Shown here piece after piece: positions 27,617-61,131 of a DNA stretch of 64,000 nucleotides. The translations under genes were made by a program, and so were the position numbers. Under the pieces are notes generated by a model. It had not been told where the DNA came from. It saw nothing but the letters and a program-made list of their open reading frames with translations, and searched no databases. The stretch's first letter is position 1. Each line of letters starts with the position of its first letter. This stretch comes from a virus: IMG/VR virus record IMGVR_UViG_3300028920_000022, positions 62,001 to 126,000 of that record; one strand, given 5' to 3'.

Positions 27617-27635
27617 TATGAGGAAAGTAACAACA

Positions 27636-27998
27636 ATGTCTAAAGAGTGGCTCAAGAAATTAATAGGTAATAACCGCCTACTAGACGCGATTGTTTACAT
27701 CTTAGCTGTATGTTTAATAATGATCGCGATACAGCATTTTATAAACAACAATGTGTGGGAGGGAATAATTTATTTAATCTTTTGTGCGTTTTTGTGGATA
27801 AATGTTAAGCAAAGGCGTCTCATTGACAGCTATATAGACGAAATAATTCCAGAGTATCAAAAACTAAACGACAACACCTTAAAGGTGGCGGAAGAAGCTG
27901 CTGCCAAATACGAATATATTATCAACGAATATAGGAACAAAATCGAAGTTTTACAAGGAAACGCGCCACCAAAAGACAATACCAAATACTTAAATTAA
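27636..27998 (+). CDS. Two-TM coiled-coil protein, 120 aa
   Basis: Two membrane segments (AIVYILAVCLIMIAIQHF and GIIYLIFCAFLWI) then a coiled coil (ADEAAAKYEYIINEYRNKIEVL-like). ATG 27636 is spaced from GAGGAAAG; ATG 27618 is an in-frame alternative. Its TAA ends exactly where the tRNA-like RNA begins. Confidence 0.7.
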   Translation: MSKEWLKKLIGNNRLLDAIVYILAVCLIMIAIQHFINNNVWEGIIYLIFCAFLWINVKQRRLIDSYIDEIIPEYQKLNDNTLKVAEEAAAKYEYIINEYRNKIEVLQGNAPPKDNTKYLN

Positions 27999-28179
27999 CC
28001 ACGGGACTCAGTGTATCCAGCAAGCCCAACATCAACCATTTACCAACGCCTGGGTCTTTTTGACAGAAAAATAGCGCTATTTTCTACCAGGCAGAGGTTG
28101 GTTTGTGCGGCAGGTTTGTGGCTCTACTTGGGAGTATGCGGTCAGCTACTGTAGGCAGGTTCGAACCCTGTTCCGTGGA
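27999..28179 (+). ncRNA. 181-nt tRNA-like structured RNA
   Basis: Ends pair like a tRNA acceptor: CCACGGG 27999-28005 with TCCGTGG 28172-28178, then A28179. A T-arm follows the rules exactly: GCAGG-TTCGAAC-CCTGT, 28155-28171. The ~150 nt between carry no recognisable D or anticodon arm but fold strongly: ACCAAC+GCCTGG (28042-28053) with CCAGGC+GTTGGT (28087-28102), enclosing two hairpins, and GTGGCT 28118-28123 with AGCTAC 28144-28149. It fits exactly between a TAA and the next ATG (28182). Possibly an interrupted tRNA or a novel tRNA-like RNA. Confidence 0.6.
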
Positions 28180-28181
28180 CT

Positions 28182-28436
28182 ATGGATTTTGACAAAATAT
28201 ATCAGGAAGTAATAGAACTAGTCGCTATTTCTGGTAAACCAAGTTCTGTTGCGTTAGATAGGTTTCATAGTCATGATTGGGCGATTTCGATTCGAGAATC
28301 TTTTGAGTGTGATGTTAAATTCGAATGCCAAACTTGTGGGTTTTGGTTTTTTTATTGCACGGAAGATAAAAGAGTTAATGCATCTTGGTTTAAATACACT
28401 TGTCAAGAATTAACTATCAAAGATATAATCACTTGA
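28182..28436 (+). CDS. Zinc-ribbon protein with tail motif (ends TIKDIIT), 84 aa
   Basis: HSHDW ... FECQTCGFWFFYC provides a partial zinc site; the tail is TCQELTIKDIIT. Starts 3 nt after the tRNA-like RNA. Belongs with the 35952, 39351, 48101 and 55953 proteins. Confidence 0.75.
   Translation: MDFDKIYQEVIELVAISGKPSSVALDRFHSHDWAISIRESFECDVKFECQTCGFWFFYCTEDKRVNASWFKYTCQELTIKDIIT
28400..28429 (+). promoter_or_regulatory. Promoter overlapping the tail-coding sequence
   Basis: TTGTCA 28400-28405, 18 bp, TATAAT 28424-28429, inside the codons for the TIKDIIT tail. A leader of about 17 nt would lead to ATG 28454. Confidence 0.55.
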
Positions 28437-33324: not shown

Positions 33325-34137
33325 ATGGCAGCAAGAGCAGTTTGTAGTGGGTCTATTACTTTTGGTCTAGTTACAGTTCCGGTCAAGCTGTATACGGCAG
33401 CTTCCAGCGAATCAGTAAGTTTTAACTTTATCTCCCCTTCCAGTGTAGGAAAGGGTAAAACCTTGAAGAAGGCACGCATGCCATTGTTGGATGCTGTTAA
33501 TGGCAAGGAAATTGATCGTAGCACATGTCCACGCGGATACGAATATGCTAAGGGAGAGTTTGTGGTCTTTTCTGCGGAAGAGATTAAGAAGCTCGAAGCT
33601 ACCAAGAATAGCTGTATCGAAATTCAGGAATTTGCCGAAATCAGTGCCGTGGATCTGATTCAGGTGGAAAAGTCCTATTATGTCAAGCCTGACAAGGGTG
33701 GTGACAAGGGTTATAAGCTGCTTTCTCAGGTAATGAAAGAAAAAAGCGTAGCCGCCATTGCCTCATGGACCTACAAGGGCAAAGAGCGTCTCGTTATGGT
33801 GCGAGATTACAAGGGTGGTTTGCTGCTTCATCAGTTGTATTATGTCAACGAAGTTCGGGATTTCGATGACAATTGCGCAGCCGTTTCATTGTCCGAGCCT
33901 GAGCTGGATATTGCTTCACAGCTAATTGATCAGCACACTACTGGCGCGCTGGATTTGAGCAAATATCGCGATGTTCATGTTGATCGGGTCATGAAGGCGG
34001 TGGATCAAAAGAAGGCTGGTGGTGAGGTTAACATTGAAACCGCTGCGGCTGCTTCGTCTCTTGGTACTCTGGAGGCTATGCAAGCAATGTTGAAGGCTTC
34101 TAAGAAGTCACCCAAAAAGAAGGCGCCAAAGAAGTAA
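33325..34137 (+). CDS. ku: Ku DNA end-binding protein, 270 aa
   Basis: Starts ARAVCSGSITFGLVTVPVKLYTA, the signature N-terminus of bacterial Ku, and has the full-length core (LLSQVMKEKSVAAIASWTYKG ...). The C-terminal tail is Lys-rich (KKSPKKKAPKK), as in bacterial Ku proteins that thread onto DNA ends. Ku homodimers bind double-strand breaks and recruit ligase. Strong GGAGG site 12 nt after the preceding stop. Confidence 0.97.
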   Translation: MAARAVCSGSITFGLVTVPVKLYTAASSESVSFNFISPSSVGKGKTLKKARMPLLDAVNGKEIDRSTCPRGYEYAKGEFVVFSAEEIKKLEATKNSCIEIQEFAEISAVDLIQVEKSYYVKPDKGGDKGYKLLSQVMKEKSVAAIASWTYKGKERLVMVRDYKGGLLLHQLYYVNEVRDFDDNCAAVSLSEPELDIASQLIDQHTTGALDLSKYRDVHVDRVMKAVDQKKAGGEVNIETAAAASSLGTLEAMQAMLKASKKSPKKKAPKK

Positions 34138-38430: not shown

Positions 38431-38460
38431 TTGACAAGTGCCCGTTCTGATTGGTATTAT
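38431..38460 (+). promoter_or_regulatory. Promoter, predicted leaderless, for the DNA ligase
   Basis: TTGACA 38431-38436, 18 bp, TATTAT 38455-38460, 6 nt to ATG 38467. Confidence 0.85.
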
Positions 38461-38466
38461 CAGGGC

Positions 38467-39354
38467 ATGGTAGACAGAATTCAGTGGTATTGCGGTCCGC
38501 GGCTCGATGGCGTGCTCGCTGATCTGCAGGACCTTGAAGACCAGGGAAACCGTGTTGCCGAGCGCAAAAAGGACGGTCGCTGGTGTGGTCTATATGTAGA
38601 TTACTTTAAATCTTGTAAACATAAATTCGAATCTCGTGCTGGAATTGATCATGAAGATTCGCTACTATTGGGTTTAAATAATCTAGATCTTGGTGATTTG
38701 GGTAAAGATACTATTCTAGTTGGGGAACTAGAAGCGGGAACCACAGCAGCTAATATACGGTTTTCTCGATTGGGATACCGACGTATATGGTTATTCGATG
38801 TGGTTTGTTTGAGGGGACATGATTTGCGCCACATGGTTCTACGGGACCGTCGTATTCTATTGAGGGAAACCATTTGGAACATGTTTCCCGCCAAGACGCA
38901 GCAACGATTGCCTTTGGTGGAAGACAGTGAGGATAATTTTGTAGATTTCTACAAGCGTACTTTGGAAGATGGTGACGAGGGTGTGGTCATAAAGAGGTTA
39001 GATATTTCTGGCTGGTCCTATCGTTCGTCTGGGAAAACTGATCATTGGGTCCGGGTTAAGCCCACACGAACGATTGACTATGCCGTTATTGGTCCAGACA
39101 AAACCGACGGAGGAGATTTGACAGCCAATCTTGGGTTGTGGGAAAACGGTAAGTTGCGCAAGGTTCTCAAGTACCAGCTACCTCAAATGACACTTTTGCC
39201 TAACGGACATTTGGCAGAAGAGGGAAGGGTGGTTGAGATGTACGGGCGTGAATTGTTTGAATCAGGATCTCTGCGTTCTGCGCAATTCCTGCGCTGGCGA
39301 GATGATAAAACGCCTGATATGTGTGATGGAACAATTAATATGGTGAGTTTATGA
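38467..39354 (+). CDS. ATP-dependent DNA ligase, 295 aa (leaderless)
   Basis: Motif I ERKKDGRW places the nucleophile at K34; motif III VGELEA, IIIa FDVV, IV DEGVVIKR and V WVRVKPT follow in order, with an OB-fold C-terminal part. Similar in size to LigD-type or phage ligases. With Ku 4 kb upstream it is the natural sealing partner for end joining. Confidence 0.92.
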   Translation: MVDRIQWYCGPRLDGVLADLQDLEDQGNRVAERKKDGRWCGLYVDYFKSCKHKFESRAGIDHEDSLLLGLNNLDLGDLGKDTILVGELEAGTTAANIRFSRLGYRRIWLFDVVCLRGHDLRHMVLRDRRILLRETIWNMFPAKTQQRLPLVEDSEDNFVDFYKRTLEDGDEGVVIKRLDISGWSYRSSGKTDHWVRVKPTRTIDYAVIGPDKTDGGDLTANLGLWENGKLRKVLKYQLPQMTLLPNGHLAEEGRVVEMYGRELFESGSLRSAQFLRWRDDKTPDMCDGTINMVSL

Positions 39355-53802: not shown

Positions 53803-54396
53803 ATGAAAGCTTTGTTACTAGTTGATATTCAAAACGATTTTCTGCCAGGCGGTTCGCTGGCGGTAAATGAGGGGGATTTAATTATCCCCGTTGCAAACGA
53901 ATTGATGGCGCCCAGAGTTACAGATCTGGTGGTTGCAACACAAGATTGGCACCCTCATGGACACGGAAGTTTTGCCTCTGCTAATGGTAAAAACCCTTTC
54001 GAAATGGGTGAGTTATCCGGTTTGCCACAAGTAATGTGGCCAGACCACTGTGTTCAGCATACTTTTGGTGCTCAGCTGGCAGATGAATTAAAAGAAGAAA
54101 AAATTCACAAAACATTTGTTAAAGGAACTGATCCTACTGTTGATAGCTATAGTGCGTTTTATGACAATGCGAAGCGCAATTCCACCGGATTAGGCGAGTG
54201 GCTGAAAAAACAGGGGGTTACTGAGCTTATTGTTTTAGGTTTGGCTACCGATTACTGTGTCAAGTTTTCAGTATTGGATGCATTAGAGCTTGGTTTTAAA
54301 GTCAAACTTGTTGTTGATGGCTGCCGGGCGGTTGATCCGGTTGCTGGAGAACGGGCTATAAAAGATATGGAAGAGGCTGGGGCAGAATTAATATGA
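53803..54396 (+). CDS. pncA: Nicotinamidase (PncA-like), 197 aa
   Basis: Catalytic triad D8 (VDIQNDF), K107 (FVKGTD) and C152 (TDYCVKF), with DWHPHGH as the metal site. Converts nicotinamide to nicotinate, the first step of bacterial NAD salvage. ATG 53803 is preferred to TTG 53797. Confidence 0.93.
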   Translation: MKALLLVDIQNDFLPGGSLAVNEGDLIIPVANELMAPRVTDLVVATQDWHPHGHGSFASANGKNPFEMGELSGLPQVMWPDHCVQHTFGAQLADELKEEKIHKTFVKGTDPTVDSYSAFYDNAKRNSTGLGEWLKKQGVTELIVLGLATDYCVKFSVLDALELGFKVKLVVDGCRAVDPVAGERAIKDMEEAGAELI

Positions 54397-55721
54397 CCAC
54401 GTTAGCAATGACCGTAGCAAAAGCAGAAAGCCATCCCAACGCGGATGCGTTGCGTGTGTATCAATTTGCTCTTCCAAACAGGGAAGATACGCTACAGGTT
54501 GTGGCTAATTTAGAAAATGTCTACGAAGTTGGTGACGTTGTGGTAGTGGTTTTGGCAGACGCCACTCTTAAAGACAATACCAATATAAAAGCCTGCAAAC
54601 TGCGCGGAGTGCCTTCGTATGGAATGGCGCTTGGTAAAACCGAAGTTGAAGTAGGTACCGACTTAACTGAGCAATATGAGTTGCCTGTTGTTCAACGCCG
54701 TGGTGTAAACGTAATCAAATGGACCGAAATTGAATCGTTGTATAATGTGCGACGTGGTCTAAAAGAAATGGGTAAAGAAGATACCCATGTGACGTACTTA
54801 GGGAAAGTAAAGTTGCATGGCAGCTGCGCCGGAATTCAATTATTTACTGACGGACGTATTGTTCCACAAAGCCGTACAAGAGTTTTAGATCCGGAAGATG
54901 ATAATATGGGATTTGCCCGCTGGACAGTTTCCATGTACGATTATTTTTCGCAAGTGCGAGCCAGAGCAAACGAGCTAGGTTATGATCATGTCGTTATTTT
55001 TGGAGAGTGGTCGGGGTCTGGGATCAATAAAGGTGTAGCTATATCTAAAATTGATAGAAAGATTCTGGCTGTTTTTGCGGTACAAATTGGCGGATTGGAT
55101 ACGCCAGCGAAACTAGATATTAACGGTACATCTATCCGCAAACTGTTTCCAGAACATGATGACGTATTCGTTTTGCCCTGGTTGGGTGATGCTTTAATGC
55201 TTGATTTTTCTAACAAAGAACAGTTAGAACGGCAGGCTGAGAAGATAAACCAGTTGGTAGAATCGGTAGAAACACGAGATCCTTGGGTTTACGACACTTT
55301 TGGTGTAGACGGTCTTGGCGAAGGTGTGGTAATGTATCCACTCATCGATAAAAAATACCTCGGAAAAGATGGTCCTATCTTTGTGGATAAAATGGAATTT
55401 TCTGACCTAGTATTTAAAGCCAAAGGTGAGAAACACAAAGTGGTCAAAAGCAAAAAAGCAGCCCAGATTGATCCTGAAGTAGCTGCTGGGGTGGAAGATT
55501 TTGTATCTTTGTTTGTGACTGAGCCACGACTAGAACAGTTCGCACAGCAGGTGGGAATTAGTCAGAAAAATACTGGAGAGTTTCTGAAAAGGTTTTGTTC
55601 TGATGTACAAAAAGAAAGTGTTGCTGAGCTGGAAGCTTCTGGTTTAGAATGGAAACAAGTATCAAAACCTGTCGGCACAGCAGCTAGAACATGGTATTTA
55701 AACGAATGTAAAAAACTATGA
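54393..55721 (+). CDS. RNA ligase with N-terminal OB (tRNA-binding-like) domain, 442 aa
   Basis: Residues 1-90 (KAESHPNADALRVYQF ... VVANLENVYEVGDVVVVVL ... KLRGVPSYGMALG) resemble EMAP-II/Trbp111 OB domains. The ligase core has KLHGSCAG (K140), GEWSGSGINKGVAI and GEGVVMYP, as in the Rnl5 type of RNA ligase known from Deinococcus. ATGA overlap with nicotinamidase. Likely acts on nicked or broken RNA, perhaps tRNA. Confidence 0.9.
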   Translation: MTTLAMTVAKAESHPNADALRVYQFALPNREDTLQVVANLENVYEVGDVVVVVLADATLKDNTNIKACKLRGVPSYGMALGKTEVEVGTDLTEQYELPVVQRRGVNVIKWTEIESLYNVRRGLKEMGKEDTHVTYLGKVKLHGSCAGIQLFTDGRIVPQSRTRVLDPEDDNMGFARWTVSMYDYFSQVRARANELGYDHVVIFGEWSGSGINKGVAISKIDRKILAVFAVQIGGLDTPAKLDINGTSIRKLFPEHDDVFVLPWLGDALMLDFSNKEQLERQAEKINQLVESVETRDPWVYDTFGVDGLGEGVVMYPLIDKKYLGKDGPIFVDKMEFSDLVFKAKGEKHKVVKSKKAAQIDPEVAAGVEDFVSLFVTEPRLEQFAQQVGISQKNTGEFLKRFCSDVQKESVAELEASGLEWKQVSKPVGTAARTWYLNECKKL

Positions 55722-59556: not shown

Positions 59557-59800
59557 AGTAGTATTGGTAATTTCCTTCGCTATTATTATATGTTGGGTGG
59601 TGTTTGTTATTATTGCGGTCATCCGCTATCACCCCACTGTGAAAGAAAAATTGATACAAAACATTCAATACTACCAAGATACACGAACTGGACTTTGTTT
59701 TGCGGTAAGTGAGGCTTCTGGAGCCGGTTCTTCTGCTTTGGCTACTGTACCTTGTGACAAAGTCAAGGACCACCTATCACAAGTAGGAGATGTGCAATAA
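59537..59800 (+). CDS. Single-TM phage protein with TGLCFAV motif, 87 aa
   Basis: ATG 59537 follows GAGG within the rIIB tail. TM VVLVISFAIIICWVVFVIIAV, then YYQDTRTGLCFAVSE ... TVPCDKV, a pattern I recall from many phage membrane proteins of unknown function. Confidence 0.75.
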   Translation: MKTTASKVVLVISFAIIICWVVFVIIAVIRYHPTVKEKLIQNIQYYQDTRTGLCFAVSEASGAGSSALATVPCDKVKDHLSQVGDVQ

Positions 59801-61131
59801 TGTGGAGAGAGTTCCGTAGACTTACCAAACAAGCGGAGCTTTACTGGAAAATAAAGCAAGATGGTGACAGCTATACCACCGAACATGGGCAGGTTGGTAC
59901 AGAAAACCCACAAACATTCTCAGACACACCCGGATCAAAAGGAAAAGAGGGAACTAAAGCATTCGTTAATGCTGTAGACAATTGCACCTTTAATGTGGAA
60001 CGTGAAATTCGCAAAAAGGAAGAACACGGTTATATAGAATACATAGATGGTAAACTGGTTAATACAGCAATTACAGATATAGATTTTAACAAATTTTTAC
60101 CTAAACCTTTTTGCAGTTATAAGCCGCAAACTTCTATCACAGAAAGTGCACATAAAAAGATTTTTAAACGTGGTGCTGCTAGGTATACCCGTAAAAGGGA
60201 TGGCATGCAGCATATTGCTGTCAGACACACTTGGGGTTGGGAAATATATACCCGAAGAATGGATTTGGCTAGTGATAGATTTCCCCTGCATATCAAACAG
60301 CTAGAGAGAACGAATTTTGGTGTAGGTACTATTTTAGCCGGTGAAATGATATGTGAGTTTGAAGGGCTAGATGATTTTACTGCACATGCCCGGGGCATTA
60401 GTCGTATTTGTAGGAGCGATCCGCCTGAGGCACGTAAACTGATTGAGGATGGGGAAGTAACCGAACCTATCTTTTACATGTTTGATATTATTTATAACAA
60501 CAAAATTCCGTTAAGAGATGTAAAATATGATGACCGTCGCCAGCTGTTCGTTGAAGGGGTGGGTGACGATTTAGAGCATATTAAATATGTTCAACTGATG
60601 GAGGGTTTAACTCCTGATAATTGGGAAAAAATAGCAAAAGAAAACAAATGGGAAGGGTTTGTCATTGTTGATGGCGATTCAGTTCCTGGGGAAAAATTCT
60701 TTTCTTTTGATGGAGACGCTAAGCGACCCAAGGGGCATCACAAACTGAAGCCGAATTGGGAAAGTGATGTTGTTATATATGCTGGGGTTTTTGGTACCGG
60801 CAAACGGCTGGGTAGAATTGGGTCAGTGTTGGTTGCACAAATCCACCCTCACACAAAGAAATGGATACGTTGTGGTAAGGTTGGTTCTGGGTTTACCGAT
60901 GAAGATCTGTTAGAGTTGGAACTGATTTTTACAGAAAAGAACTTACCAATATTCAAAAAAGAAAAAGAAGACACGGTTGATTTAGAAACGTGTGATGGAA
61001 TTGTGGCGATGATTGAGTATGGTGAGCGGCAACCAAAGACTCAGAAGTTTAGGTTTCCGGTGTTTATGCGTATCAGAACTGATAAAACAATGGGCGAGTG
61101 TATTGTGGAAAGATTAGCGGCAGAGGAATGA
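59800..61131 (+). CDS. ATP-dependent DNA ligase with N-terminal WGR-like domain, 443 aa
   Basis: Residues ~10-80 (YWKIKQDGDSYTTEHGQVGTE ... REIRKKEEHGY) look like a WGR domain, a DNA-end-binding module of PARPs. Ligase motifs follow: I TRKRDGMQ (K132), III AGEMICEFEG, IIIa MFDIIY, IV WEGFVIV, V HHKLKPNW. It is the second ATP-dependent DNA ligase in this window. Confidence 0.9.
   Translation: MWREFRRLTKQAELYWKIKQDGDSYTTEHGQVGTENPQTFSDTPGSKGKEGTKAFVNAVDNCTFNVEREIRKKEEHGYIEYIDGKLVNTAITDIDFNKFLPKPFCSYKPQTSITESAHKKIFKRGAARYTRKRDGMQHIAVRHTWGWEIYTRRMDLASDRFPLHIKQLERTNFGVGTILAGEMICEFEGLDDFTAHARGISRICRSDPPEARKLIEDGEVTEPIFYMFDIIYNNKIPLRDVKYDDRRQLFVEGVGDDLEHIKYVQLMEGLTPDNWEKIAKENKWEGFVIVDGDSVPGEKFFSFDGDAKRPKGHHKLKPNWESDVVIYAGVFGTGKRLGRIGSVLVAQIHPHTKKWIRCGKVGSGFTDEDLLELELIFTEKNLPIFKKEKEDTVDLETCDGIVAMIEYGERQPKTQKFRFPVFMRIRTDKTMGECIVERLAAEE

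Follow-up and report, generated by a model that had tools for sequence, protein, structure and literature searches.

What kind of RNA begins and ends like a tRNA, is 181 nt long and has no visible anticodon arm? This question is raised by the locus at positions 27999-28179 (+) of the window, i.e. the whole 64-kb stretch of DNA analysed here, which corresponds to bases 62001-126000 within a 458.7-kb virus record and belongs to a jumbo phage. The source phage is tailed, as seen from its genes for terminase, rIIA/rIIB, a Ku-like protein, RNA ligase and DNA ligase. No near relative was found among 50,697 phage records in a nucleotide search, and the terminase is 81% identical in two viral contigs, both of them short fragments. 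About 16 tRNA genes were recognised in the 459-kb phage genome, and the RNA in question (hereafter window RNA) sits outside any tRNA cluster.

Ends of the window RNA and neighbouring genes

The original prediction had given the window RNA a 7-bp acceptor-type helix, a perfect T-arm and an unpaired terminal A as in a tRNA. The helix lies exactly where it had been placed: the 5' strand CCACGGG (27999-28005) forms seven pairs, the last of them G-U, with the 3' strand TCCGTGG (28172-28178), and the pairing probabilities in unconstrained folding are 0.59-1.0. The T-arm GCAGG-TTCGAAC-CCTGT (28155-28171; unconstrained pairing probability 0.66-0.78) is present with 5 bp, although 'perfect' was slightly generous for an arm whose outermost pair is G-U. 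The unpaired A28179 takes the discriminator position, and the CCA is not encoded in the DNA. A 7-bp acceptor stem and a T-arm with a TTCRANY loop are thus the features of the tRNA family (RF00005) found in the window RNA, and 149 nt are enclosed between the 5' strand of the acceptor and the T-arm.

The window RNA fills a gap amid tightly packed genes, and its G+C content is 0.51 compared to 0.41 for the window. The fit is exact from stop to start, as had been claimed: the TAA stop (27996-27998) of the upstream ORF (27618-27998 (+), 126 aa) abuts the RNA, and the ATG of the downstream ORF (28182-28436 (+), 84 aa) begins two bases past A28179. Neither ORF has a PHROG match. Such an arrangement might also be expected of a cis-acting processing signal, a fold that only marks the sites at which RNase P and 3' processing enzymes cut an operon mRNA, so that the downstream mRNA (CUAUGG...) is left almost without a leader and the excised piece has no function. 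The operon location and the position of the ATG are in line with this explanation, and so is the absence of the Shine-Dalgarno-like motifs GGAG, GAGG, AGGA and AAGG from the 18 nt upstream of the downstream ORF. However, only 36% of the longer genes of this phage have a Shine-Dalgarno-like motif anyway, and a folded interior of 149 nt is unnecessary for processing. We therefore regard a mere processing signal as decidedly unlikely.

Predicted fold of the interior

The three-way-junction-like interior that had been proposed is recovered in the predicted fold as a long rod with a Y-shaped tip. At the base of the rod, the strand CTCAGT (28007-28012) is predicted to pair weakly with 28126-28132 (mean pairing probability 0.5-0.7). 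Above it, an irregular rod replaces the D and anticodon arms, its 5' side (28017-28044) pairing with 28096-28121 (helix mean probability 0.84-0.98); the 3' side of the whole rod spans 28096-28132. The tip (28048-28092) consists of the stem GCCTGG/CCAGGC (28048-28053/28087-28092) and two hairpins (28054-28064 and 28065-28085), of which the second holds the palindrome AAAATAGCGCTATTTT, unique in the window. Directly before the T-arm region, where a tRNA has its variable arm, a small hairpin AGTAtGC-ggtca-GCTACT (28133-28150) is predicted with a pairing probability of about 0.6. Compared to shuffled sequences, the tip (28046-28093) is more stable (z = -3.1), the RNA as a whole has an ordinary folding stability (z = -1.6) and the stretch leading up to the T-arm shows no gain (z = +0.7). 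Since the stability of the whole RNA is unremarkable and only the tip stands out, the model of the interior is to be taken as a prediction. The minihelix of the window RNA has a folding energy of -15.2 kcal/mol, compared to -15.1 kcal/mol for the phage's own tRNA-Ile.

Pairing of acceptor and T-arm compared to chance

The frequency of acceptor/T-arm pairs was determined in order-2 shuffles of the window, at a separation of 60-300 between acceptor and T-arm. The shuffled 64-kb windows contained 0.033 such pairs each (both strands), compared to two in the real window, namely the window RNA and a tRNA-Tyr. When every GTTCRANYC in the 459-kb record was checked, a motif that leaves out tRNAs with other T-loops, all other acceptor-paired T-arms belonged to tRNAs of 71-87 nt. 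The acceptor/T-arm pairing of the window RNA is beyond chance.

Homologues of the window RNA were not found by phage nucleotide searches, via the neighbouring proteins or with DNA patterns, and the 22-nt 3' end had no homologue among 84,980 prokaryote species. These negative searches and the weak overall folding z-score are what one would expect of pairing that arose by chance within a non-coding gap. With 0.03 cases expected per 64 kb, an exact fit to the gap between the genes and a high G+C content, however, such an origin is very improbable. The stretch 27999-28179 is thereby confirmed as a real feature, and the original prediction had described it well.

Search for a tRNA or another known RNA within the window RNA

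ARAGORN at default thresholds made no call on the window RNA, even when introns of up to 3000 nt were allowed or the tmRNA mode was chosen, and at lowered thresholds the tRNA folds that it proposed were poor and confined to the 3' part. Covariance searches with the Rfam models of tRNA, tmRNA (RF00023), YrlA (RF02553) and group I introns yielded no match at E<=10. A tRNA carrying one insert would reappear upon removal of that insert. Among all single internal deletions, 3 of 1890 variants gave weak ARAGORN hits, and shuffled interiors often yielded as many hits or more, so the removal of any one internal segment brings no hidden tRNA to light. Neither a D-arm nor an anticodon arm was found by ARAGORN with introns, by Rfam at E<=10 or in any of the internal deletions. 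The window RNA is not a decoding tRNA; rejoinable tRNA exons and a group I match in Rfam were both absent, which argues against a group I intron as well. The earlier exclusion of a tRNA, a tmRNA and a group I intron thus agrees with Rfam, ARAGORN and the deletions.

The same results bear on the explanation that the locus is a tRNA gene with an intron or insertion, or one that decayed after such an event, the acceptor and T-arm being remnants around a foreign middle. Interrupted tRNA genes do occur in other phage contigs: L067:1836-1962 (-) and L067:11876-12030 (-) have intact acceptor, D-arm and T-arm, and 62 and 97 nt, respectively, replace their anticodon loop or arm. The genome of our phage itself holds a tRNA-Ile(GAT)-like gene (L016:1501-1577 (-), genome 441163-441239) that has a normal anticodon arm, no D-arm and a variable region larger by 18 nt. 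In the window RNA, however, the deletions gave no excess of tRNA calls over shuffled interiors, no D-arm is visible, a group I intron is not matched, and the helices at both ends are preserved, which would not be necessary in a decayed gene. An interrupted or decayed tRNA gene thus appears rather unlikely.

In tmRNA, acceptor, long helix and T-arm follow each other in this order, and Y RNAs mimic tRNA. The window RNA shows the tmRNA order and likewise no anticodon arm, and might accordingly be conceived as a degenerate tmRNA-like or Y-RNA-like RNA. It has, however, half the length of tmRNA, no tag frame and no match to the tmRNA or YrlA model, and genes for tmRNA, SmpB and Ro60 (TROVE) were not found in the phage genome. 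In addition, its third acceptor pair is A-U and not the G3-U70 alanylation pair, the G-U at this position being what AlaRS reads. We consider such a descent extremely unlikely.

Common architecture of the window RNA and T4 RNAC

The closest known RNA is RNAC of phage T4, a precedent that the original prediction had missed, while its tRNA-like ends, missing anticodon arm and junction-like interior stood. RNAC and RNAD are two stable RNAs of unknown function from the tRNA region of T4 (PMC3014915), and both have been seen in infected cells by Northern blot (PMC9697503). RNAC (rnaC, species 1 RNA) is 139 nt long (NC_000866 70908-71046; L299:1409-1547; homologues in L300-L313) and is not in Rfam. 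Its elements are arranged in the order acceptor, long rod, hairpin and T-arm, and neither a D-arm nor an anticodon arm is present. Its 3' part consists of the T-arm CCGGG-TTCGAAT-CCCGG followed by a 7-nt strand that pairs with the 5' end.

An alignment of 13 homologues from T4-like phages revealed compensatory changes in the acceptor, the hairpin and the T-arm of RNAC; two U-U mismatches in the T4 acceptor, for example, become pairs in Yersinia phage TG1. The loop of the hairpin, CGUCAA, is complementary to UUGACG at the tip of the rod in 13 out of 13 homologues, with two double changes (CAUCAA/UUGAUG and CGCCAA/UUGGCG). For this contact, 33 cells were changed on both sides compared to 8.6 in shuffles, and the covariation score was 0.308, compared to 0.141 when shuffled and to at most 0.10 when slid. 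By this covariation, RNAC is an acceptor/T-arm RNA that lacks decoding arms and has a loop-loop contact.

When the same folding procedure was applied to both RNAs, the window RNA displayed the element order of RNAC: an acceptor stem, a long rod with an apical hairpin, then a hairpin, the T-arm and a short 3' end. Both are phage-encoded, have neither D-arm nor anticodon arm and are missed by Rfam. They differ in length (about 140 nt for RNAC compared to 181 nt), in the tip, which is a three-way junction in the window RNA, and in location, RNAC lying in a tRNA cluster and the window RNA not. Furthermore, the CGUCAA loop and its partner UUGACG are not clearly present in the window RNA; the counterpart picked by eye, UUGAC/GUCAG, comprises 5 nt with one G-U, a length expected by chance. 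The strings GAGTA-GCG-TCA-CTACT and TTTTTGAC, shared by the two RNAs, made the window RNA a candidate sequence homologue of RNAC, which was rejected by the covariance model: this model (R1) scored 121-157 bits on RNAC genes (L313 outside the model, the other three in it) and recognised in the window RNA only the T-arm, with 7.6 bits. Since the order of the elements is the same but only the T-arm is matched by R1, the window RNA seems to share the architecture of RNAC as the same kind of RNA without being a demonstrable member of the RNAC family. It is thus not categorically new, as T4 RNAC has the same plan.

Proposed maturation and role

Taken together, we hold it somewhat probable that the jumbo phage produces the window RNA as a stable tRNA-like molecule which does not decode, follows the plan of RNAC and is released from the transcript of an operon. 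Enzymes of 3' processing and CCA addition recognise the acceptor/T-arm stack, which here comprises 12 bp and the T-loop. This stack is also what RNase P binds and measures (PMC4919913). Since this stack is a substrate of tRNA enzymes, we infer that the window RNA is transcribed, excised, CCA-tailed and protected: tRNA-processing enzymes would release the RNA from a polycistronic transcript of the phage by cleaving at 27999 and behind A28179, CCA would be added to the excised RNA, and the RNA would be stable and protected in the manner of a tRNA. A comparable principle is known from engineered tRNA scaffolds: when mounted on a tRNA chassis, RNAs are matured in E. coli and remain stable there (PMC3753655). 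In these scaffolds, too, foreign RNA is carried on an acceptor/T-arm chassis, but the D-arm is kept and only the anticodon stem-loop is replaced, whereas the window RNA is natural.

The working part is presumably the rod with its Y-shaped tip, which stands in for the D-arm and the anticodon arm and may bind a protein or an RNA in the infected cell; any assignment of its target is speculative. One guess would be that it serves as a decoy and draws off host or defence factors that act on tRNA, among them tRNA-targeting defences. Jumbo phages carry RNA-repair genes against tRNA-targeting attacks (PMC7824862), and an RNA ligase gene is located at 54393-55721 of the window.

Elongated tRNA-like RNAs in other phages

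Phages commonly carry elongated tRNA-like RNAs: examples of 108-155 nt were met in viral contigs, and in the cases tried they were missed by ARAGORN. A search pattern of a Leu-type D-arm and a distant T-arm gave at least 120 matches. The matches listed include tRNA-Leu-like phage RNAs of 107-137 nt with inserts (L180-L259, e.g. L190, L201, L222 and L240), and an unannotated tRNA-Leu-like copy is present in Bacteroides phage BS-TP2 (19550-19657). Among the matches listed, the 7-bp acceptor is perfect in 62 of the 72 distinct readable members, with 52 different sequences; when acceptor strands were swapped between members, 1.6% paired perfectly. The interior of the listed RNAs measures 55-85 nt, most of them have no ordinary anticodon arm, and some have a possible pseudoknot. 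Some members hinted at a regular pseudoknot throughout the class, but the signal across all of them was weak (helix scores of 12.8 and 10.9 compared to 11.0 and 9.7 when shuffled) and the idea was not retained. With permissive settings, the Rfam tRNA model recognised several of the Leu-type RNAs as long tRNAs, so some of them may simply be tRNAs in which the variable arm is enlarged or an insert is present.

The Leu-type RNAs resemble the window RNA in that a paired acceptor and T-arm surround a long interior, mostly without an ordinary anticodon arm. They differ from it in keeping a Leu-type D-arm (UGGCGGAAU...), which is lacking in the window RNA: the D-arm sequence GGCGGAAU is absent from the window RNA, and the pattern with GGCGGAAU is absent from the phage genome.

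As a tentative idea, phages may repeatedly have evolved natural tRNA scaffolds, in which the acceptor/T-arm stack is kept for maturation and protection by the host tRNA machinery and combined with a non-decoding arm. RNAC, the window RNA and many of the Leu-type RNAs could then be branches of one overlooked class, possibly decoys against host tRNA-targeting defence. The abundantly sequenced RNAC can now be recognised as an acceptor/T-arm RNA without decoding arms, and an independent RNA apparently of the same plan is now at hand from a very distant jumbo phage. Together with the elongated tRNA-like RNAs, the two would turn a curiosity into a class that is testable with regard to maturation by tRNA enzymes, charging and binding partners.

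Further features of the phage genome

The gene of the Ku-like protein and two ATP-dependent DNA ligase-like genes are located at 33325-34137, 38431-39354 and 59800-61131 of the window, and together these genes of a jumbo phage could make up an end-joining set. A profile search with the Ku-like neighbour gave a best match of 33% identity and no close relative. An ochre (TAA) suppressor tRNA with the anticodon TTA, which raises the possibility of a reassigned stop codon, is the top-scoring tRNA of the genome (L002:1499-1573 (-), genome about 451590-451662).
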